This document shows positions 346 through 61,945 of a stretch of 64,000 bases of DNA, one piece after another. The notes below the pieces were generated by a model. The model did not search any database. It saw nothing but the letters and a program-made list of their open reading frames with translations, and had not been told where the DNA came from. The stretch lies in contig CAMZEO010000002.1 of NCBI GenBank assembly GCA_947305735.1, positions 1 to 64,000 on the forward strand. Direction: 5' to 3'. Position 1 is the first letter of the stretch, and each line of letters starts with the position of its first letter. Made by a program: the position numbers and the translations under genes. Origin of the DNA: an uncultured Planctomycetales bacterium. Lineage in GTDB: Bacteria > Planctomycetota > Planctomycetia > Pirellulales > Thermoguttaceae.

Positions 346-999
346 ATGGCGTTGTTTTATTTTGTCGTCGCAAGTTTTCCCTTTGCGTTGTACTTGTTGA
401 CGTTGGCGTATATTCATGGTCGAGGCGTTCCGTTTGTCGCGAGCGGTCGACGCGATTTTATCGCGCTGTGCCTTGCTCTATTCGGCGTTTTTTTTATAGG
501 ACCGGGACAACTTCTCGTCACGTGGGGCGCCGCCGCCGTCTGGGGAAAGTACGCGTGGGTTCTCATTGCCGCTCTGTGTTTTTTGGTCGTTCTTCTGATT
601 TCGTCGAATATGCGACCGAGAATTATCGTGTATAACGCCGCGCGCGAATCGTTGAGGAAAATATTGACGACCACGGCGATTTCGCTCGACGACGAAGCGC
701 GCTGGAGCGGTTCCGCGCTTAATATGCCCGGTTTGGGCGTTCAATTCTACCTTGACCCGAGCGGGATCGGGCGCGCCGCCGTTATCGTTAGGATCGACTC
801 GAATCCTTCTCAGGAAGGATGGACGCGCTTCGCCAAAGAGCTGAAAAACGCCGCGAACAACGCGGAACGCGCTCGAGGTCGCGCGTTGTGCGTCGCGTTC
901 GCGGCGCTGGGATTGGGGCTTTTGGTCGCCGACGCGTTTTGTTTCCTGCAACGTCGGGACGAGTTGCGCGACGCTCTTACGTTTTACTTGTCCGTTTGA
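346..999 (+). CDS. Hypothetical integral membrane protein (217 aa)
   Basis: Not recognised as a named family. The first ~90 residues hold three hydrophobic segments (about 2-22, 38-58 and 66-86). A soluble stretch of ~90 residues follows, then a fourth segment near 178-200 and a short polar tail. The ATG at 346 has AAGG at 332-335, a usable Shine-Dalgarno at ~10 nt. The gene ends 37 nt before the PP2C phosphatase on the same strand, so the two may be cotranscribed. The soluble part contains a short beta-like stretch (VQFYLDPSGIGRAAVIVRID) that could be a sensory or binding domain, which is speculation. Confidence 0.6.
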   Translation: MALFYFVVASFPFALYLLTLAYIHGRGVPFVASGRRDFIALCLALFGVFFIGPGQLLVTWGAAAVWGKYAWVLIAALCFLVVLLISSNMRPRIIVYNAARESLRKILTTTAISLDDEARWSGSALNMPGLGVQFYLDPSGIGRAAVIVRIDSNPSQEGWTRFAKELKNAANNAERARGRALCVAFAALGLGLLVADAFCFLQRRDELRDALTFYLSV

Positions 1000-52662: not shown

Positions 52663-53130
52663 ATGAAATCGAAATTGGCTCTTTGTTTTATAGCGGCGTT
52701 TGGATTCGTCGTCGCGAACGTTTCCGCGCAAGATTCCGTCGACGTCGCGGCTCCCGCGCCGGCGGTCGTCGCTTCTCAGACGACCGTCCAGCCCTTGGGC
52801 GATTGCGACGAGTGCGCCCAGGGAGGCTTCGTTGGATTCGGACGGTTCGGCGGTTTGGGCAGTCCTCGCGCCTACTGGGAGCAACGCGACGCCGAGCGCC
52901 GCGACGAAATCGGTCGACGTCGCCAGATCGTCCAAAGGTCTCCTTACGCGTATCCGACCGGAGAGCTTCAGGACTGGGCGCGTTTCCGCAACTATCCGTA
53001 CGTGTATTACGATCACAATTTTGGAACGCGCGATATGCGCATTCCCGGATACAACCCCGCGTGGCAAAACTACTATCCCTCCGGACGACGTTATCATCAG
53101 GGCAATCATTTCAATCTTGACGTGTTCTGA
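52663..53130 (+). CDS. Small secreted Tyr/Arg-rich protein (155 aa)
   Basis: Not recognised as a named family. AAGGAGG at 52651-52657 fixes ATG 52663. A signal peptide (MKSKLALCFIAAFGFVVANV, ending SAQ) is followed by a short Ala/Pro/Val stretch, a DCDECAQGGFVGFGRFGG segment with two Cys, and an aromatic, Arg-rich second half (RSPYAYPTGELQDW, NYPYVYYDHNFGTRD, NPAWQNYYPSGRR). The composition suggests an envelope or surface protein, and small proteins of this kind are known in planctomycetes. It is followed by a terminator, so it is its own unit. Confidence 0.75.
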   Translation: MKSKLALCFIAAFGFVVANVSAQDSVDVAAPAPAVVASQTTVQPLGDCDECAQGGFVGFGRFGGLGSPRAYWEQRDAERRDEIGRRRQIVQRSPYAYPTGELQDWARFRNYPYVYYDHNFGTRDMRIPGYNPAWQNYYPSGRRYHQGNHFNLDVF

Positions 53131-53194: not shown

Positions 53195-53299
53195 CTTTTC
53201 CTGTTCCATAAATCGTGTTGTTTTAACTTATTGAAAAATAGAAAGTTGAGATTGTTTATACACAATAAATTTTTTTAAAAAGAATTGTGTGAAATCCGC

Positions 53300-53327
53300 T
53301 TGTCGAGTTCGCGATTTGTGTTATATT
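53300..53327 (+). promoter_or_regulatory. Sigma70-like promoter of the tiny-ORF unit
   Basis: -35 TTGTCG (53300-53305), 16-bp spacer, -10 TATATT (53322-53327), also reading as an extended -10 (TGT-TATATT). The predicted start is ~53334, giving a leader of only ~17 nt before the first tiny ORF. Confidence 0.6.
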
Positions 53328-53350
53328 GGATTTCGGTTTCAGGAGAATAT

Positions 53351-53443
53351 ATGAAATTCCCCGCCTGCAGGCGCGTTCGCGTCGTTTTACCCGGTCCCGC
53401 GGGATCCCCAATGAAGGAGTCTTTGTATGTCGAAACGCAGTAA
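53351..53443 (+). CDS. Tiny ORF 1 (30 aa), possible leader peptide
   Basis: ATG 53351 stands 5 nt after AGGAGA (53341-53346). It encodes a 30-residue peptide starting MKFPACRRVRVVLPGPAGSP and ends at TAA 53441-53443. It overlaps tiny ORF 2 by 17 nt, and the ribosome site of ORF 2 lies inside it, so translation could be coupled. The peptide itself is not recognised. Its reality depends on the good ribosome site and promoter; alternatively the unit is an RNA gene. Confidence 0.4.
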   Translation: MKFPACRRVRVVLPGPAGSPMKESLYVETQ

Positions 53444-53489
53444 ACGTCGTCAGTGGTGGAGAGAAGAGATCTTAGCGACCGCCGCGTAA
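53427..53489 (+). CDS. Tiny ORF 2 (20 aa), basic Trp-containing peptide
   Basis: AAGGAG (53414-53419) lies 7 nt ahead of ATG 53427. The peptide is MSKRSKRRQWWREEILATAA, with a strongly basic N-terminal half, a Trp pair and a helical-looking end. A small hairpin (53496-53511) and a 14-bp terminator follow directly. Too short for family assignment. It could be a small functional peptide or a by-product of a structured RNA. Confidence 0.45.
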   Translation: MSKRSKRRQWWREEILATAA

Positions 53490-53517
53490 CGCGCGGTTCT
53501 TTCGCAAGAACTTGATA

Positions 53518-53559
53518 AAGAGCTTTGATTCAGGAGAGAATCAAAGCTCTTCTTGTTTT
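53518..53559 (+). terminator. Strong terminator of the tiny-ORF unit
   Basis: Perfect 14-bp stem AAGAGCTTTGATTC / GAATCAAAGCTCTT around the 6-base loop AGGAGA, then CTTGTTTT. The loop equals the ribosome-site sequence AGGAGA used by tiny ORF 1. From here to 53754 (about 195 nt) I see no further feature. Confidence 0.85.
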
Positions 53560-53754: not shown

Positions 53755-54318
53755 TTACGACTTTTCTTCAAGCGTAATTATTTCTCTTTCGCATTCCGCA
53801 GTTACGCCTTCGTCCCAATCGTTATTGACAAACGCGTCGACGCTCGAAAATTTTCTGGAAAGGTCGTAACCCTTATGGATATAAATGTCTTCTGAAAACC
53901 ATATCGCTTTTTCGAAAGACAGTTGACGATTTCCAAAATCGAAAACGAGGCCCCTTGTGAGCCAGACGTCGTACGTCTGGTCGCCGTTTTTGAATAACCG
54001 TTGGTTTTCCTGAATTACCGATACGCTTTTTATCTTTTCTTTGATTGGCGTTTCGATAAATACTTTACGATCGACAACCTGATAACGTTCGGTTTCAATT
54101 GTCCATACCGCTACGTCCTCTTTTGTTCCAAAATAGTCGAGCGGTTCTGTGAAACTGTACAGGTAAAACAGACCGTTTTCCGCTTCTATTTGCACAACTT
54201 GCGAAGACGAATTAATGTAATTGAACGAATCGCGTCTTATTGCGACAAGTTCCTTTCCAACAAGAGATTGAAGTATCAAAATCTCTTGTTCTTTTAAACG
54301 AATATCTATTTTAACCAT
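53755..54318 (-). CDS. Hypothetical protein, possible immunity-type (187 aa)
   Basis: Not recognised. Soluble, rich in beta-type residues and aromatics (VKIDIRLKEQEILILQSLVG at the start, VWLTRGLVFDFGNRQLSFEK in the middle, acidic end). No signal or membrane segment. Codon use is more AT-rich than in the core genes, as in the rest of the block to its right. It is the last leftward gene behind the toxin-associated cluster, 88 nt from the next. An immunity or accessory role is suggested by position only. Confidence 0.6.
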   Translation of the reverse strand: MVKIDIRLKEQEILILQSLVGKELVAIRRDSFNYINSSSQVVQIEAENGLFYLYSFTEPLDYFGTKEDVAVWTIETERYQVVDRKVFIETPIKEKIKSVSVIQENQRLFKNGDQTYDVWLTRGLVFDFGNRQLSFEKAIWFSEDIYIHKGYDLSRKFSSVDAFVNNDWDEGVTAECEREIITLEEKS

Positions 54319-54406
54319 ATTAAATTTGCGCGCGCCTTCCCAACTCTATATGTTGCAAGCCCGCGTCATATTGCGCTTCTCTTGGCTCTATTAGAAAGCG
54401 CGTCGT

Positions 54407-54955
54407 CTAATCAACTTGATAATGTTGGTCAGAAACGTCTTTAGCCTCAAAACTACCCGCGCGCCGGGATAGTATTTTATCCGTAAACAGAGCGAGATAT
54501 TCGCCTTGGGCAACCGCGTAATAAGTCGGCGGATAAAGTCGTTCAATTTCCGTGTTTGGGACGGGATGTTCGGCGACCTCAAACCATGTTAAATCGTCAT
54601 AGATTACGCTCGAATATCCGCAAGACAGGTCGACGTTGACTTGCCTTTTTGTCGGAATGTAGGTCTTTATGACGTTGATATTACGTTCTCTGTCAAAAAC
54701 ATGAAGGGTTCCGCATTGGGGACGTCGCCACATATAATTGAACAACCCCATAAAATCCTCGTAGACGGAGTCTGATTGATATAGATACGGACTTGGAACG
54801 AGATATTCCGAGCGCATCTTTTCATTATTGGGGTCGTATTTCGATTCCGTAATATTTTTCCAGGTTTCAATGGGAAAAAGAATGAGTTCTATTCCGTTAG
54901 GTTCGTCATGATAGCGTATTCCTTTTCCGCAACCTCCGCATTGTAATCCTGCCAT
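54407..54955 (-). CDS. Zinc-ribbon-like protein, possible immunity protein (182 aa)
   Basis: Begins MAGLQCGGCGKGIRYHDEPN, with a CxxC that, with CG at ~82 (RRPQCGTLHVF), may bind zinc. The layout parallels the protein at 55462-55953: Cys motif, ELILFPIETWKNI versus DIVLWAYPDKQWKDI, then a Cys-x-x-hydrophobic strand, then a mixed C-terminus. The two are probably distant paralogues. AAGGAGAA precedes ATG 54955, directly after a decayed ORF. Likely an orphan immunity-type gene whose toxin partner has been lost. Confidence 0.65.
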   Translation of the reverse strand: MAGLQCGGCGKGIRYHDEPNGIELILFPIETWKNITESKYDPNNEKMRSEYLVPSPYLYQSDSVYEDFMGLFNYMWRRPQCGTLHVFDRERNINVIKTYIPTKRQVNVDLSCGYSSVIYDDLTWFEVAEHPVPNTEIERLYPPTYYAVAQGEYLALFTDKILSRRAGSFEAKDVSDQHYQVD

Positions 54956-54965
54956 AGTATTCTCC

Positions 54966-55185
54966 TTAATTCATGTCGTACATAACGCCGTTGTGGAATA
55001 ATTTTACCTTACCCTTAATCCAATTTTTTCGCTTTCCTTCCTGAATCGCTTTGCTTACAATCCTATAGGCTTCCTGGTAAGACGAATATGCGGACGCTAT
55101 AACCACGATTCCCTCCCGGTGTGTTTCAGGAGGATAACGATAGGCGTCCGCTGTTTTCTGTAAAATGTATTTTTTGTCGTTTCAT
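54966..55185 (-). pseudogene. Frameshifted small ORF upstream of the zinc-ribbon gene
   Basis: ATG 55185 opens MKRQKIHFTENSG, and the frame stops after 19 residues. A +1 shift near 55150 (around GAAAACAGCGG) gives a continuous protein-like tail: ADAYRYPPETHREGIVVIAS, then AYSSYQEAYRIVSKAIQEGK and KLFHNGVMYDMN, ending at TAA 54968-54966. The intact ancestor would have had ~73 residues. Its stop sits in the ribosome site of the next gene, as expected for a coupled pair. A GTG at 55106 could still express the last 46 residues. Confidence 0.5.
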
Positions 55186-55406
55186 TCAGCCGTCGTCTGA
55201 ACCGCGTTCAACGTTGACGTCAACCGCCGGACTTCCGTCGGAACTTGACGCGTTGCCCCAACTTATAACGCTACCGTCTGAGAGACCGCGCCGACGACCC
55301 TTTTCCCGCCCCGTTTTTTATCATAAACAGGTATTTCAATACCGCCATGGGCTAATTAATCATATAATTCTTTGGCGGTCTTTTCAGGATCGTCTGACTC
55401 GAACAT
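55186..55406 (-). pseudogene. Small ORF broken by a nonsense codon and a 1-base deletion
   Basis: ATG 55406 opens MFESDDPEKTAKELYD, then TAA, then in the same frame LAHGGIEIPVYDKK. At the A6 run that follows (GATAAAAAACGG) a shift of one base continues as TGREKGRRRGLSDGSVIS, WGNASSSDGSPAVDVN and VERGSDDG to TGA at 55186. The length (221 nt) is one short of a multiple of three, consistent with a single lost base. The stop codon abuts the ATG of the next remnant (TGAATG). Function unknown; probably debris of toxin-immunity turnover. Confidence 0.5.
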
Positions 55407-55461
55407 GGCGCAAGAGTCCGTCGAAGCTTTTTTAAAACGGCGATTTTGAATTCTCGTTCGC

Positions 55462-55953
55462 TTATTCGTCTTCCAATGGATTCATAATAAGAGGTTTTGG
55501 TCGCGTTGGAGAAGGAACAAAACGGTATTCGAGGGTTTTCTTCGTCGTTGAATCGCGCAACAGTAATCGAGTATAGTCTCCGTAAATCTCGATTTTTATC
55601 GATGAGGAAGGAATGGTCGACGCGTCAATTTCGTTCGGAAAAATGATTTCGTCCCATTCGACGTCGGTAAACACGTGCCAGAGTTCTCTGGACGGATCCC
55701 CGGCGAAGATGGAGTCGTCGACTATTTCGTACATTGACCCCTTATTGGACGGATAACGAAATATGTACAAACGCTCGCATTTTGGACAACGCCATATTTC
55801 GAACGTTGCGTCGGGAATCAACACGGGATCAGTCTTTCCTATCTTTTGTATATCTTTCCATTGTTTATCGGGATACGCCCACAATACAATATCGCTGGGG
55901 CTCATAGAATCGGTCAAGTATTCGCCGCATTCGCATTCCATATGCATTTTCAT
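55462..55953 (-). CDS. Probable immunity protein for the adjacent nuclease toxin (163 aa)
   Basis: Begins MKMHMECECGEYLTDSMSPS; CxC and CPKC (WRCPKCERLYIF, residues ~55) could form a zinc site. Soluble, acidic, ending PLEDE. Its ATG overlaps the stop codon of the toxin gene by 4 nt (ATGA, 55953-55950), the usual arrangement for translationally coupled toxin and immunity genes. No family name can be given, but it resembles the 54407-54955 protein in layout. The immunity role is inference from position, overlap and acidity. Confidence 0.7.
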   Translation of the reverse strand: MKMHMECECGEYLTDSMSPSDIVLWAYPDKQWKDIQKIGKTDPVLIPDATFEIWRCPKCERLYIFRYPSNKGSMYEIVDDSIFAGDPSRELWHVFTDVEWDEIIFPNEIDASTIPSSSIKIEIYGDYTRLLLRDSTTKKTLEYRFVPSPTRPKPLIMNPLEDE

Positions 55954-56393
55954 ACGTCCTTTCTGTAATAGAAGTAACCTTCGTTTGTTAAAATTTCGAC
56001 GTTAATAGGTAGTTTTTTATCTGAAAACGATCCACGAGCCCGGTTGACGATTTCATCAGCCTGTTTCTTGGTGATGTCCGCTTTTCTAGCGTCTAAAATC
56101 ACATTCTGAGCTTTTTGTTTGACCGCTTTTTGAACGTCTTTGCTTCCCGTATTGGCGTTTGGTTTGTTTAGCGTTTTTACTTCGGTAATTGTATCATTAA
56201 CCTTCAAATCTGGCGCGCGGTCTTTTTCTATTTTGGATTTGGGAATTCTTCTAACGTTATACCCCCTTTCCAAAAGTTCTCCAATAACTGGGAGTTCGTG
56301 TTGTCTAAGACCGTCTGGTTTTCCAGAAAGAGAGCCTCGAGATCTTGAACCAACAGTTCTTGAATAAAACCGCATTGGCGATTTCCGCCCCAT
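55950..56393 (-). CDS. CdiA-type C-terminal nuclease toxin domain, stand-alone
   Basis: 147 residues. The pattern HELPVIGELLERGYNVRRI, APDLKVNDTITEVKTLN, SKDVQKAVKQKAQNVILDAR and INVEILTNEGYFYY fits the tRNase/PD-(D/E)xK-like toxin tips found at the ends of CdiA and related polymorphic toxins. The P-D-x7-E-x-K arrangement supplies acidic and Lys residues typical of nuclease sites. ATG 56393 has AAAGGAAA just upstream; the frame runs back to 56534 without a better start. No secretion carrier, filament or pre-toxin region is attached, so it may be a captured toxin tip acting inside the cell, or a leftover module. It overlaps the immunity gene by 4 nt. Confidence 0.65.
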   Translation of the reverse strand: MGRKSPMRFYSRTVGSRSRGSLSGKPDGLRQHELPVIGELLERGYNVRRIPKSKIEKDRAPDLKVNDTITEVKTLNKPNANTGSKDVQKAVKQKAQNVILDARKADITKKQADEIVNRARGSFSDKKLPINVEILTNEGYFYYRKDV

Positions 56394-56755
56394 ATGGTTT
56401 CCTTTATTATACGATTCCAACTTCATGGGTAGAGAAACTGAAATCTGGTAAATTTCACGCTGAATTTCACGAGAAAACAAAAGGGACGACTGGAGAGCGG
56501 GAGAATGCGTCCATGTGAGCAGGCGTTTGTTCATCCGTATTTCTCGAAACGACGAGCGTTTGACATAACGAACGTCGTTTTGCTATCCGAGTCCAGATAT
56601 TGGGGACTTTTAAAGAATGGTCTGACAATCCATTAAACCCGCGCGGTTCCGATAAATCGCCACGCATGAGTCGGCGTTCTCGGCGCAAGCCGAAATAAAT
56701 CGGTCGGTTAACGAAAACGACGCCAAAAGAACGACGGCTCGCAATCGCAAAACGA
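56394..56755. other. Intergenic stretch between hsdS and the toxin gene
   Basis: 362 bases. Short frames exist but none has a ribosome site or recognisable product. No terminator for hsdS is obvious. Confidence 0.45.
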
Positions 56756-58102
56756 CTATGAGTTAATTTGCGCTAAACGCTCGCAAAGAGGCAAAAGCTC
56801 CTCGATCTTCGCTACGATTCGCTTTTGTTCCGATAAGGGAGGAACGGGAACTAATAGTGAATGCAATACTCTAGAAGACAACCCTTGAATTGATATCCCT
56901 TTTCCTGTTATCAAACCTGCATTTTTGTAATAGAAGAAAATATAGTAGAAGAAGGAAATTATCAGACTTCCAAATGGTCTCAATCTATGAATATGATTTT
57001 GAATTCGCATACTGTAATCAAAGTTCCAAATTGCGGATCTTCCGACATCTCCACCTTCAAGAACTAAAAGGTCTCCTTTTTGTACAGAACATTTTTCAAT
57101 TTCCGTATCGGTAAAAAGCATCGTTTTAAGTTTATCAAGTTCAAAACGATTCCAGAATACGTTTGACGTTGTAATGTACTCGTATGGCTTCCCCAACTTG
57201 TCCGACGAATTTAGAGCCTTTCCTGTGTTATGTTGAAATAAATCTCCTATACGAACCCACTTCCACCCGTCCGGGATCTCAAACGGAATCTCGTCTTCTT
57301 TAATCTCGGGCAAGGGCTTTTCTTTTTTAATCTTTCCTTCTTTGACGAGTCGTTGTTTCTCGCGTTGAATCTCGCGATAGAGTTCTTCCGCAGTTCCTTC
57401 GTCGGGGCGTTGTTCGACGAGTTTGCCCTGAATTGCCAGCTGCAAAACGCTCTTTTGAAGATCGCCGGGAAATCGCTTGTCGAGCTCCCCAAGTCGATTC
57501 CACGCTTCCTCGTAACGCTCGACATAAGGCAAAAGTTCCTCGATCTTCGCCACGATTCGCTTTTGTTCCGATAACGGCGGGAGAGGAACCATGCAGTTAG
57601 ATATTTGATTAACCGTTATTTGTGGAATTGCGGACCCTGAATACGCGAACCATATTGGTTTAAAAGCGTAACAACAATAATATAAATATTCAGGTAAGAT
57701 ATCATGAAGCTTGGTCGCACAAATTGTAGTTTGAGTACACGTTGCAACTTCGTCTTTAACTAACGTTACATATCCAATAGAATTGCCTCGTGCAGGAATT
57801 ACTAAATCGTCTTTATGTAATTCTAACTCGGCGCATTTCACGTAACCGAGAACTGTATCAGATTGAGTTGCGCTGTAAACAGGAATTCCCTCGTCGAACA
57901 AGTCTTTTTTTAGAATGGTTTTGCCCATTCTTATATTAGCGAAAAATCCAAATCTTTTCCAAATCCAGTTATCTGGAATTGGGAATATTTCATCTTCCCA
58001 AACTTCACCCTTTAATGAGATACCTTCGTTTTTGTTTTGTTCAACCAGTTTCCCCTGAATCGCCAGCTGTAAAATACTGTTCCTCAACTCCTGCGGCGTC
58101 AT
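56756..58102 (-). CDS. hsdS: Type I restriction-modification specificity subunit HsdS
   Basis: 448 residues; sets the DNA target of the type I complex. Two target-recognition domains (about 30-200 and 250-425) are separated and followed by the conserved helical repeats. PLPPLSEQKRIVAKIEELLP and its second copy PVPPLSEQKRIVAKIEELLP end each half, and SILQLAIQGKLVEQNKNEG and SVLQLAIQGKLVEQRPDEG begin each half. The DNA repeats that encode them lie at 56776-56840 / 57516-57583 and 57416-57470 / 58041-58102, allowing domain exchange. Its ATG would overlap the stop codon of an in-frame hsdM (ATGA), but hsdM is now out of frame there. Confidence 0.93.
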   Translation of the reverse strand: MTPQELRNSILQLAIQGKLVEQNKNEGISLKGEVWEDEIFPIPDNWIWKRFGFFANIRMGKTILKKDLFDEGIPVYSATQSDTVLGYVKCAELELHKDDLVIPARGNSIGYVTLVKDEVATCTQTTICATKLHDILPEYLYYCCYAFKPIWFAYSGSAIPQITVNQISNCMVPLPPLSEQKRIVAKIEELLPYVERYEEAWNRLGELDKRFPGDLQKSVLQLAIQGKLVEQRPDEGTAEELYREIQREKQRLVKEGKIKKEKPLPEIKEDEIPFEIPDGWKWVRIGDLFQHNTGKALNSSDKLGKPYEYITTSNVFWNRFELDKLKTMLFTDTEIEKCSVQKGDLLVLEGGDVGRSAIWNFDYSMRIQNHIHRLRPFGSLIISFFYYIFFYYKNAGLITGKGISIQGLSSRVLHSLLVPVPPLSEQKRIVAKIEELLPLCERLAQINS

Positions 58103-58190
58103 TGGTTCCCCCCAAGCAAGTTCTGAATCGTATCGAGAACTTGGTCGATTTCGGCGTTAAGACTCGCTCGTTGCTCCTGATAGCGCAGTA

Positions 58191-59588
58191 TCAAATCGCC
58201 GGGGTCGAGAATTTCGTCTTCCTGATGCGGGAACCCACACTGGTCGAGATTGTACCAAGTTCTTCGCTCAACTGCTTATAGGAATATTTCTTCGCCTTGT
58301 CGAACCCGTCGACGACGATCTCCTTTCGGTCGTTCCACCATTCCGCAACGGGCTGGAAATGTTCGAGTTTCATCGGCTTGGTCTTGCTGAAATGCTTATA
58401 CCCTTCGGGCATGTCGAGCCGATAGAACCACGTTTCCTTCGTTTGACCCGTCCTGTCGAAGAAGAGAATGTTTGTCGTAATGGACGTGTACGGCGAAAAG
58501 ACGCTGCCGGGCAGTCGGACGATCGTGTGAAGATTGAACTCGTTGAGCAGCTTCTTTTTAAGCGCGACTTTGGCGCCGTCGGTTCCGAACAGGAACCCGT
58601 CGGGCAAGACGACGGCGGCGCGTCCGTTTTGTTTGAGCCGTTCAATGATGATTGCCATAAAAAGGTCGGCGGTTTCGCTTGACGCAAGATCGGCGGGGAA
58701 AAAGTTTTTGATTTCCTTTTGTTCAGAACCTCCGTAGGGAGGATTCATTAAAATGACGTCGAATTGATCGCTTGGCGTATAGTCGAGCAATTTCTTGACA
58801 CTTAGCGAATTGTTCCGAAAGATTTGGGGATTGTCCAACTTGTGAAGGAACAAATTTGTAACGCAAAGCAGATAAGGAAGTTGTTTTTTTTCGATACCGT
58901 AAAACGAATTGCGCCACAAATCGTCGTCTTCTGTTCTTTTGATTTTCTTTTTGAGTTCCTTAAGCCACGAGACGATAAACCCTCCGGTGCCGCAGGCAAA
59001 ATCCGCCATCGTTTCTCCAATTTGCGGATTAATCGTTTGCGCCATGAAATCAGTTACGGCGCGCGGGGTGTAGAATTCTCCCGCCGACCCCGCGCTCTGA
59101 AGTTCTTGGAGAAAAGACTCATAAATACCGCTGAAAGCTTGTGATTCTTTGTAATCCTCAAGTTCAATTCCGTCGACAATGCCGACGACTTGCTTTAATA
59201 AATGACCTTCTTTCATATAATTGTTGACGTCGCTAAACGTTTCGCCAACAATGCGTTCGCGAATTGGTCGGTTTTCTTCGGCTGAGATCCTTTTTAGAGT
59301 CGGAAATAATCGATCATTAACGAATTTTAGAAACTCCGAACCGGACATTCCGTCGTTCTTGAGCTTTTCTCCCTCTTTTTTTACGCGCGCCCAGTTTTTC
59401 CATCGGCAATCTTCGGGAATGACCGGTTGATAATCGTCTTCAAGTTCCCAGTCGGCTTCTCTTGAATCGTAGGCTTTCAGAAACAGAATCCATGCGATTT
59501 GTTCAATGCGTTGAGCGTCGCCGTTAATGCCCGGATCGTTACGCATAACGTCGCGTATTTTTTTAACAAAACTTCCCACATTGCTCAT
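58191..59588 (-). CDS. hsdM: Type I DNA methyltransferase subunit HsdM, C-terminus frameshifted
   Basis: 465 residues; N6-adenine methyltransferase subunit. SAM-binding motif FACGTGGF, catalytic NPPY in LMNPPYGGSEQ, and the HsdM N-terminal helical domain are intact. The end is abnormal. After KQLSEELG the frame runs into TISTSVGSRIRKTKFSTPAI and stops at 58191. In the next frame the family tail is intact: YNLDQCGFPHQEDEILDPGD, LILRYQEQRASLNAEIDQVL and NLLGGNQ, ending at TGA 58101-58099, which overlaps the hsdS start. A single base is missing near 58253-58258. The lost ~50 residues normally help bind HsdS. It follows hsdR after 2 nt. Confidence 0.9.
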   Translation of the reverse strand: MSNVGSFVKKIRDVMRNDPGINGDAQRIEQIAWILFLKAYDSREADWELEDDYQPVIPEDCRWKNWARVKKEGEKLKNDGMSGSEFLKFVNDRLFPTLKRISAEENRPIRERIVGETFSDVNNYMKEGHLLKQVVGIVDGIELEDYKESQAFSGIYESFLQELQSAGSAGEFYTPRAVTDFMAQTINPQIGETMADFACGTGGFIVSWLKELKKKIKRTEDDDLWRNSFYGIEKKQLPYLLCVTNLFLHKLDNPQIFRNNSLSVKKLLDYTPSDQFDVILMNPPYGGSEQKEIKNFFPADLASSETADLFMAIIIERLKQNGRAAVVLPDGFLFGTDGAKVALKKKLLNEFNLHTIVRLPGSVFSPYTSITTNILFFDRTGQTKETWFYRLDMPEGYKHFSKTKPMKLEHFQPVAEWWNDRKEIVVDGFDKAKKYSYKQLSEELGTISTSVGSRIRKTKFSTPAI

Positions 59589-59590
59589 AG

Positions 59591-61945
59591 TTACGCCGCC
59601 TTTCCCTGGTAAATCGCATTTTCAAGTTCATGAACCGCTTCGAGATAATTTTCTTTTCCGCCGAAATACCCGACAATTTTGACGGGTTGTCCCAGTTTTT
59701 GGAACGGATCGATTTTCAAAACGGCGATTTCTTCAATTTCGTAAACGCCGTGATCCGTATATTTATCGAGAAGCGCTTCGAGGACTTCGCGCGCTTTGCC
59801 GGAGTATTTGTCGAATAGACCGCTTTGTTTGGCTTTTTGAGCGCGTTCGCGCCGTGTGAGCGGCTTTTGATCAAACGCCAAATGACAGATGAAATCGAAA
59901 TCGTCGTAGTTCGCCATATTTTCACGCGCTTTGAGCGCATCGAGGTCGATTCCCCAGTTTTTAAAGATCTCTCGAAAGAAATCTTTTTTGGAGGAGGCTC
60001 GCCATTCGGCAATGAACTTTTCAAGAGAACCAAAATGACCGAGGATATTGTATTTAGTGTAGTCGACGAGGTTTTCGACGCGCGTTGAGTTGGTTTCCGC
60101 GTCAAAAACGGAAAATCGCTCGCCGACAATTTCGACGCGGCACCCGTTGACGTCGACGACCGGCTTGACCTTTTTTTCCGGTTCCGGGTTTTCTTTCTCT
60201 TCCGATTTCGGCTTAGGTTCTGCTTCTTTGTCTGGGGCGAAGTCGTCGTCGATTTGAACGGGCCCGTCCCACGATTCGTCGGCGAACAGGCGCGTAACGT
60301 TGCGGAAGTCCATGACGACAAACGACTCTTTTCTCTTTATTTCCGGTATGTCGTCGCTATTGACGAGCCTCGTTCCGCGTCCGATGATCTGCTTGAACTC
60401 AGTCATCGAGCCGATATTTTGGTCAAGAATGATCAATTTCGTCGTCTTACAGTCGACGCCCGTTGAAAGAAGTTTAGAGGTCGTGGCAATTACGGGATAG
60501 GGCGCCGTTTTTGAGATGAAGTACTCCAGTTTGCTCTGACCGTATTTATCGTGTCCGGTGATTCTTACGACGTAGTCGGGGTTCTCCTTGACCATGTCGG
60601 CGTTCAAATTAACAAGTTCCATGCGCATACGATCGGCGGCGTCTTCGTCTTGACAAAAGACAATCGTTCTGGCCATGCGGTCGTTCTGTTGGAGATATTT
60701 GGTTACGCATTCGGCGACTTTTTTCGTTCGATGTTCCAAAACGATCCTACTGTCGAAGTCGGAGTTGTTGTAGACGCGGTCTTCAATGTCGTTGCCGTAT
60801 TTGTCGACTTGTCCTTTATAAGGTTTCCATCCTTCGCCGACGTCGAACGTTACGTTAATAACGCGAAAGGGAGCAAGGAATCCGTCTTCAATTCCCTGTC
60901 GGAGCGAATAGGTGTAAAGGGGTTCGCCGAAGTAGTTGACGTTCGAGACGTATTTCGTCTCTTTCGGCGTGGCGGTCATGCCGATTTGCGACGCGGAGCT
61001 GAAATATTCGAGGATTCGCCGCCAGCGGCTCTCCTCTTTAGCGGAGCCGCGATGACATTCGTCGACGATGATCAAGTCGAAGTAGTCGGGCGCGAACAGC
61101 TCGCTGTAATGTTCCTGATCGTCGTCCCCGACAAGTTGCTGATAGAGCGCGAAATAGACTTCGTAAGACTGCAAAATGGAAAGGTCGTCTTTGGAGAGAT
61201 CGATTTTGTGGATTTTCTTCTCCAAAGGACTGAAATCTTGCCGAATCGATTGATCGACAAGAACATTTCGATCGGCGAGGTAGAGAACTTTGCGTTTGAG
61301 TCCGCTTTCGAGAAGCCGCCAGACAATTTGAAACGCCGCGTACGTCTTGCCCGTGCCTGTCGCCATGACGAGCAAGACGCGGTCTCGACCGCCAGCGATC
61401 GCGTCGACGGTTCGATTGATCGCTACGCGTTGATAATAGCGCGGCTCTCTGCCGTTTGCCTTCATTCCCGTGTAATACGGCTGATTAAGCGCGCGTTCTT
61501 CATTTTGCGAAAGCGTTTTTCTCGACCTTAAACGCGCGACAAGTTCCTCCTCTGACGGAAATTCGTCGAGAGAAAGTTCACGTTCCTGCCCCGTGAGATA
61601 ATCGTGTTCGACGAAAAAATCGCCGTTGGAACTGTACGCAAACTTGACGTCGAGCGCTTCCGCATACGCCATTGCTTGTTGAATTCCGTAGCCCGACCCA
61701 TGTTTATTCGATTTCGCCTCAACGACCGCCAAAGGAACGTGCGCGTTTAGAAACAGGACGTAGTCGGCGAATTTTGGCGGTTTCTTGACTGTTTTGGAGC
61801 CTTGAAGAACAATAGGCTCGTCGGTGATCTTATATTCCAGACGTATTTTCCTCTTCGGCCATTTCTTCAGGATCGCGGGCGTTATGTATTGGTTTTTGAC
61901 GTCCTCTTCGGACATTTCGTTTTTTGAAAACAGGGACTCGGTCAT
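59591..61945 (-). CDS. hsdR: Type I restriction enzyme subunit HsdR
   Basis: 784 residues; the motor and nuclease subunit that translocates and cuts unmethylated DNA. The N-terminal nuclease core has FADYVLFLNAHVPLAVVEAK (D...ExK). The helicase motor shows VMATGTGKTYAAF (I), IIVDECHRGS (II), QIGMTATPKE (III), ATTSKLLSTGVDC and QIIGRGTRL (V-VI). A Pro/Glu/Lys-rich linker leads to a C-terminal helical domain (KFIAEWRASSKKDFFREIF). Its frame is complete. It is first in the order hsdR-hsdM-hsdS. No Shine-Dalgarno is clear before ATG 61945, and a palindrome cluster lies 180-420 nt upstream. Confidence 0.93.
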   Translation of the reverse strand: MTESLFSKNEMSEEDVKNQYITPAILKKWPKRKIRLEYKITDEPIVLQGSKTVKKPPKFADYVLFLNAHVPLAVVEAKSNKHGSGYGIQQAMAYAEALDVKFAYSSNGDFFVEHDYLTGQERELSLDEFPSEEELVARLRSRKTLSQNEERALNQPYYTGMKANGREPRYYQRVAINRTVDAIAGGRDRVLLVMATGTGKTYAAFQIVWRLLESGLKRKVLYLADRNVLVDQSIRQDFSPLEKKIHKIDLSKDDLSILQSYEVYFALYQQLVGDDDQEHYSELFAPDYFDLIIVDECHRGSAKEESRWRRILEYFSSASQIGMTATPKETKYVSNVNYFGEPLYTYSLRQGIEDGFLAPFRVINVTFDVGEGWKPYKGQVDKYGNDIEDRVYNNSDFDSRIVLEHRTKKVAECVTKYLQQNDRMARTIVFCQDEDAADRMRMELVNLNADMVKENPDYVVRITGHDKYGQSKLEYFISKTAPYPVIATTSKLLSTGVDCKTTKLIILDQNIGSMTEFKQIIGRGTRLVNSDDIPEIKRKESFVVMDFRNVTRLFADESWDGPVQIDDDFAPDKEAEPKPKSEEKENPEPEKKVKPVVDVNGCRVEIVGERFSVFDAETNSTRVENLVDYTKYNILGHFGSLEKFIAEWRASSKKDFFREIFKNWGIDLDALKARENMANYDDFDFICHLAFDQKPLTRRERAQKAKQSGLFDKYSGKAREVLEALLDKYTDHGVYEIEEIAVLKIDPFQKLGQPVKIVGYFGGKENYLEAVHELENAIYQGKAA

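Follow-up and report, generated by a model that had tools for sequence, protein, structure and literature searches.

A very small, conserved peptide gene with its own predicted control region in gut Thermoguttaceae

Proteins of fewer than about 30 residues are usually missed by routine gene calling, and confirming them by similarity is very difficult. SpoVM, which has 26 amino acids, is a small membrane-associated bacterial protein, and proteins of its kind are believed to be non-catalytic and to act at the membrane. YohP, with 27 amino acids, is likewise small and membrane-associated (PMC7549839). A further short peptide, peTrpL of Sinorhizobium (peTrpL/rnTrpL), is a leader peptide that acts in trans (PMC7298713). 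Families of small ORFs have been assembled by comparison of genomes and metagenomes in GMSC (PMC11364881) and sORFdb (PMC11796252), and the gene described here is an object of the same kind. GMSC predicts ORFs of at least 30 nt, so copies of this gene may be present there, and its authors state that the recovery of homologues drops sharply at 20 amino acids (PMC11364881). A literature search on planctomycetes combined with small proteins and ribosome profiling brought up Sinorhizobium work only.

The window is the whole stretch of 64,000 nucleotides that was analysed. The unit studied here (53300-53559) is found on a contig of 72.7 kb in genome G000, the assembly of which has 4.4 Mb, and the following elements are seen in it and directly in front of it:

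53260-53290, + strand: spaced inverted repeat ACACAAT-N17-ATTGTGT with perfect arms, directly 5' of the promoter; probable operator
53300-53327, + strand: predicted promoter TTGTCG-16 nt-TATATT with extended TG, 9 of 12 consensus matches
53300-53305, + strand: -35-like TTGTCG
53322-53327, + strand: -10-like TATATT
53341-53346, + strand: AGGAGA, read directly
53351-53443, + strand: ORF1, 30 amino acids, judged not to be a gene
53414-53419, + strand: ribosome-binding site AAGGAG, 7 nt 5' of the ORF2 ATG
53427-53489, + strand: ORF2, 20 amino acids, MSKRSKRRQWWREEILATAA, 63 bases; the gene
53427-53443, + strand: overlap of ORF1 and ORF2, 17 nt
53496-53511, + strand: small hairpin GTTCTT-TCGC-AAGAAC, 3' of the ORF2 stop, judged incidental
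53518-53558, + strand: intrinsic terminator, with a perfect 14-bp stem (53518-53551), loop AGGAGA and a T-rich tail

An earlier note on this DNA had listed the promoter, the AGGAGA and AAGGAG sites, the 30- and 20-codon ORFs with their 17-nt overlap, the hairpin and the 14-bp terminator, and all of these are present at the coordinates above. The spaced inverted repeat had been overlooked. Within the region such signals are not denser than in shuffled sequence (8 promoter-like matches versus 5.1 ± 2.6, and 16 terminator-like matches versus 12.8 ± 3.5), and the G000 transcript folds mildly more stably than its shuffles (z -2.5). Single promoter and terminator matches and the fold do not decide whether the unit is more than chance; it is regarded as such because ORF2 is conserved.

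Comparison of the relatives makes it almost certain that ORF2 is under selection as a protein, and that several genera of gut Thermoguttaceae carry it as a single-copy gene that has its own promoter and, within the genus of the window (g1), its own terminator. The common form of the peptide has 18-21 residues, comprising a basic stretch, a Trp pair and a short hydrophobic tail. Its core motif is (K/R)RxWW(K/R)xxxLxTAA followed by the stop codon, and R8, W10, W11, and A19 are invariant in an alignment of 25 peptides. The N-terminus is basic, of the MSKRxKRR kind, and the net charge lies between +2 and +6. Third codon positions are the most variable ones in ORF2, and among close relatives, compared group by group, pN/pS is 0.27 when the DNA is read in the ORF2 frame and 1.23 and 1.69 when it is read in the other two. 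G000 and G007 are 97% identical in the ORF and 70% in the leader, while for G000 and G014 the values are 83% in the ORF, 62% in the leader, and 46% in the 3' flank. When 40 genomes were searched at the DNA level six matched, the own genome included, and in the three most distant matches the aligned part corresponds almost exactly to ORF2 (query 136-199). Conservation as a protein with frame-specific purifying selection is seen over 37 genomes from five genera, and expression signals of its own are predicted for the gene, namely a promoter with a dyad, a ribosome site, and in g1 a terminator. In the g1 relatives that were aligned, an AGGAG-type site is found 5' of the ATG.

The ORF2 peptide gave no significant match in Pfam, NCBIfam, PHROGs or PDB, searches whose power is low at 20 residues. 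As far as these tools show, ORF2 would represent a new family of sORF-encoded small proteins when judged against those collections, and standard annotation would probably skip a gene of 63 bases. Like SpoVM and YohP the peptide is very short and has a gene of its own. Unlike them it has a common form of only 18-21 amino acids, a basic-WW-basic core and a tail too short to span the membrane, and no sequence relation to either protein was detected. The interest of ORF2 lies in its shortness in combination with its clear conservation and with a control region kept with the gene in different surroundings. It is a good example of the small size at which a free-standing bacterial protein can still be under selection, and it gives an experimental handle in a phylum in which small proteins seem to have received little study.

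The earlier note had left the choice between a small-peptide gene and a structured small RNA. It is the gene that stands, as the conservation of the ORF2 protein with mostly synonymous change picks it, and a structured RNA with an incidental ORF is now very improbable. The mild excess in fold stability mentioned above would agree with such an RNA, but the substitution pattern is of the protein type, and many of the predicted pairs are broken among G000, G007, and G014, with an unfavourable covariation term in this comparison of three sequences of unequal extent. There is also no Rfam match for the unit; the Rfam covariance models matched only tRNAs within the window. The leader and the 3' sequence diverge between relatives while ORF2 stays.

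Other parts of the unit have changed among the relatives. ORF1 was considered as a gene or a coupled cistron and was rejected, as its place is held by other sequence in G007 and it has no start codon in G014. The small hairpin at 53496-53511 has lost one pair in G007 (GTTCAT against AAGAAC), and its sequence is absent in G014. The repeat of AGGAGA in the terminator loop, claimed in the earlier note, is present in the window. As a functional repeat it was rejected; it looks incidental because only the nearest relative, G007, shares it, and the loops of the other relatives differ.

The 20-residue peptide was searched for in other planctomycete genomes, as had been suggested from the sequence, and one copy each was found in 37 of the 119 family genomes. 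This count was obtained with a peptide profile (A1) that was built from 16 peptides after a protein search, and which detected exactly one copy per carrier genome. The carriers belong to five genera, with 17 of the 20 genomes of g1 and further members in g44, g50, g53, and g54, while the profile did not detect the peptide in many related genera of the family. Among the g1 genomes that were negative with the profile, G004 has a diverged 38th copy, MAKRIRRRRLWWKNQWQTLAA (reverse strand, translated by eye), which is syntenic, inverted, and located beside the same neighbour gene. In G011 the contig stops 79 nt past the stop codon of the neighbour gene, and in G003, at 65% completeness, no copy of the neighbour gene was detected. 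The peptide gene is present in 18 of the 20 g1 genomes, and the other two are explained by gaps.

Outside the family, no convincing relative came up when 247 order-level and 392 phylum-level genomes, both sets including some family members, were searched with the profile; the matches there are weak and mostly lie within longer reading frames. In a DNA pattern scan of named genomes, true copies were found only in planctomycete MAGs among the matches listed. They comprise MAGs of Thermoguttaceae recovered from the gut of deer, goat, and buffalo, as well as RUG13182 and the Planctomycetaceae MAGs Im510, Cd354, Pcl387, Kf353, and Lab288. The isolate names suggest that the latter five are termite-gut samples. 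The named carriers among the matches listed are labelled Thermoguttaceae or Planctomycetaceae, and most come from animal guts. Viral contigs were also scanned, with no true copy among the matches listed. Genus g54 has longer forms of the peptide, one of 31 and six of 35 residues (e.g., MSKRRRHWWKGPHLSTAAIWMLFIPFSILILRFMV). Short (18-19 amino acids) and long (31-35 amino acids) forms are thus seen in one genus (L019, L024, L038, L039), and several g54 genomes have no detected copy.

This distribution bears on whether the product could be the small toxin of a type I toxin-antitoxin system or a Trp/Arg-rich peptide of the antimicrobial type. The peptide is short, cationic and Trp-rich, and its long forms have one predicted membrane helix, as such a toxin might. 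Its occurrence as one copy per genome and its near-universal presence in g1 nevertheless disfavour the idea. In addition, a simple consensus scan revealed no antisense promoter-like site over the gene, and there is no constant partner gene. A toxin is accordingly considered improbable.

The spaced inverted repeat has counterparts in the relatives, where the consensus of the dyad 5' of the promoter is CACA-N17..21-TTGTG. In g1, g53, and g54 its arms are altered and still match each other (CACAGT..ACTGTG, TCTCACA..TGTGAGA, CCACAA..TTGTGG, ACCACAA..TTGTGGT), and one g44 genome has CCACA..TTGTGG. Several g1 members have arms that match in part only, and the dyad is not clear in g50. A CTTG[TC]C element and a TATA box follow 3' of the dyad; they can be aligned across the g1 relatives and are recognisable in other genera. 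The layout of dyad and promoter can be made out in g1 and g54, and also in one genome each of g44 and g53. A dimeric DNA-binding regulator may act at this dyad. The control region has stayed with the gene across genera despite changed surroundings, and the unit looks autonomous because the neighbour genes differ between genera. A wider regulon was not apparent in the family, since the dyad patterns recovered the orthologues plus scattered sites, with a family-wide count about equal to that of the reversed control, and four further dyad-pattern sites that were inspected had no clear target. In the own genome, the sole other match to the dyad-plus-TTGNC pattern (L244 1515-1545, G000:C209) may be due to chance; it is flanked by an elongation-factor-G-like gene and a metal-dependent-hydrolase-like gene.

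At the other end of the unit, a stem resembling an intrinsic terminator, followed by a T-run, is found 3' of the stop codon in 17 of the 17 g1 copies detected with the profile, while the stem sequences differ. A small ORF with a WW pair that is followed by a terminator is reminiscent of a leader peptide, either in a tryptophan-sensing attenuator that uses the tandem Trp codons, or as a trans-acting product of the kind that peTrpL shows to be feasible (PMC7298713). The likeness to peTrpL/TrpL extends to the length of about 20 amino acids or less. ORF2 differs from these systems in that no attenuated gene is found 3' of it and in that its conservation covers the full peptide, RR and TAA included. 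The window contains no plausible plus-strand gene 3' of the unit that could be regulated, in other g1 genomes about 550-1,450 nt separate the unit from the next gene on the same strand, which is no trp gene, and no amino-acid biosynthesis gene directly follows the unit in the window or in the inspected relatives. The RR, L, and TAA positions are as conserved as WW, with synonymous change. A leader hairpin of C-runs with the UGG-UGG codons was raised by the three-sequence fold comparison and was rejected, as pairing between the Trp codons and the leader is not above that of shuffled leaders in most members. Structures involving the 3' part were covered by the three-sequence comparison alone. 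Given the lack of a suitable gene 3' of the unit and the conservation over the full peptide, a leader peptide appears improbable, and the statement in the earlier note that the unit is not an attenuator holds for the window locus and for g1, with terminators after all the profile-detected copies.

The surroundings of the gene are as follows. In g1 its 5' neighbour encodes a secreted protein, and a 6-pyruvoyl-tetrahydropterin-synthase/QueD-like gene is found farther 5'. On the 3' side are a gene of unknown function and a QueG-like gene (all names are from sequence reading). In the window the secreted protein just 5' of the unit is Gly- and Tyr-rich and ends in HFNLDVF (52664-53130, + strand); genomes of g44, g50, and g54 contain segments related to its C-terminus. 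The next genes 3' of the unit in the window are on the minus strand and belong to an island (53755-61945) in which type I restriction-modification genes are accompanied by small hypothetical genes that may be toxin/immunity-like; the island occupies the place of the relatives' gene of unknown function and QueG-like gene.

The properties of the peptide are compatible with a role at the membrane, and we consider the chances about even that the product acts at the cytoplasmic membrane, on its inner face, as a membrane-surface microprotein. The Lys/Arg cluster would lie on the lipid head groups and the two Trp residues would occupy the interface; LLxTAA, the short hydrophobic tail, could reach into the bilayer or occupy a membrane-protein groove. 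The peptide might then be a small accessory subunit or a regulator of a membrane complex, and in some species the tail may have become a full transmembrane helix. Four features favour this placement: the basic-WW-basic core with its hydrophobic tail, the helix of the g54 forms, a sequence pattern that recurs elsewhere, and an adjoining gene for a multi-TM protein in two genera. The six 35-residue g54 forms add a hydrophobic stretch, for which one helix is predicted (residues 13-34, mean pLDDT 77, with a two-sequence alignment). The recurring pattern, RRxWW[KR/I] followed by a membrane-type segment, is found among unrelated weak profile matches (L051, L257, L258, L259, L260, L262). Points against it are that the short forms have a hydrophobic tail of 6-8 residues only, too short to span the membrane, that the peptide is not amphipathic, that the multi-TM protein occurs mostly in genomes where no peptide was detected, and that adjacency to its gene is not universal, with gaps of 162 and 581 nt in G074 and G073.

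The tiny ribosomal proteins bTHX and bL37 are comparable to the ORF2 peptide in size and charge. The main rival to a membrane-surface role is a lineage-specific small ribosome- or RNA-binding protein, with which the positive charge, the single copy and the basic N-terminus would fit. Conservation of the hydrophobic tail, the membrane-type helix of the g54 extension, and the absence of the peptide from many related genera of the family argue against it, and it is considered rather unlikely.

A possible partner at the membrane is the multi-TM protein. In g44 and g50 the peptide gene lies just 5' of the gene for this conserved protein, which starts 31-56 nt past the peptide stop in g50, and 32, 162 (G074) or 581 (G073) nt past it in g44; in G074 a terminator-like hairpin separates the two genes. 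A PP2C-type phosphatase gene follows 3' of the multi-TM gene in the g44 genomes and in G094 and G093 of g50. The multi-TM protein has about 200-250 amino acids and no Pfam match, and it is found in 106 of the 119 family genomes, in most of which no peptide was detected. In g1 its gene is not adjacent to the peptide gene, and the homologue in the window is located at 352-990 (+ strand). No convincing tiny ORF was seen 5' of the multi-TM gene in other genera. In an unrooted tree of the multi-TM protein 16 genera that lack the peptide form one strongly supported group, while g1, g44, g50, and g54, together with the peptide-negative g55, fall outside it. A single origin of the peptide is suggested by this tree, and not more than suggested, because the tree is unrooted and has long branches, and three changes of the peptide label are needed.

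Taken to its full extent, a tentative proposal would be that the ORF2 peptides are the founding family of a core protein with about 20 residues in one gut Thermoguttaceae branch, which may bind the membrane face by its basic-WW-basic core and control a membrane complex, perhaps one that includes the multi-TM protein, under a dedicated dyad-binding regulator.

Three of the weak profile matches mentioned above (L258, L259, L262; g55) are exosortase-like proteins in which, near locus position 1501, RRPWWINVLLF precedes a membrane segment. The resemblance to RRPWWKDTLLF of the g50 peptides probably reflects a convergent interface motif.
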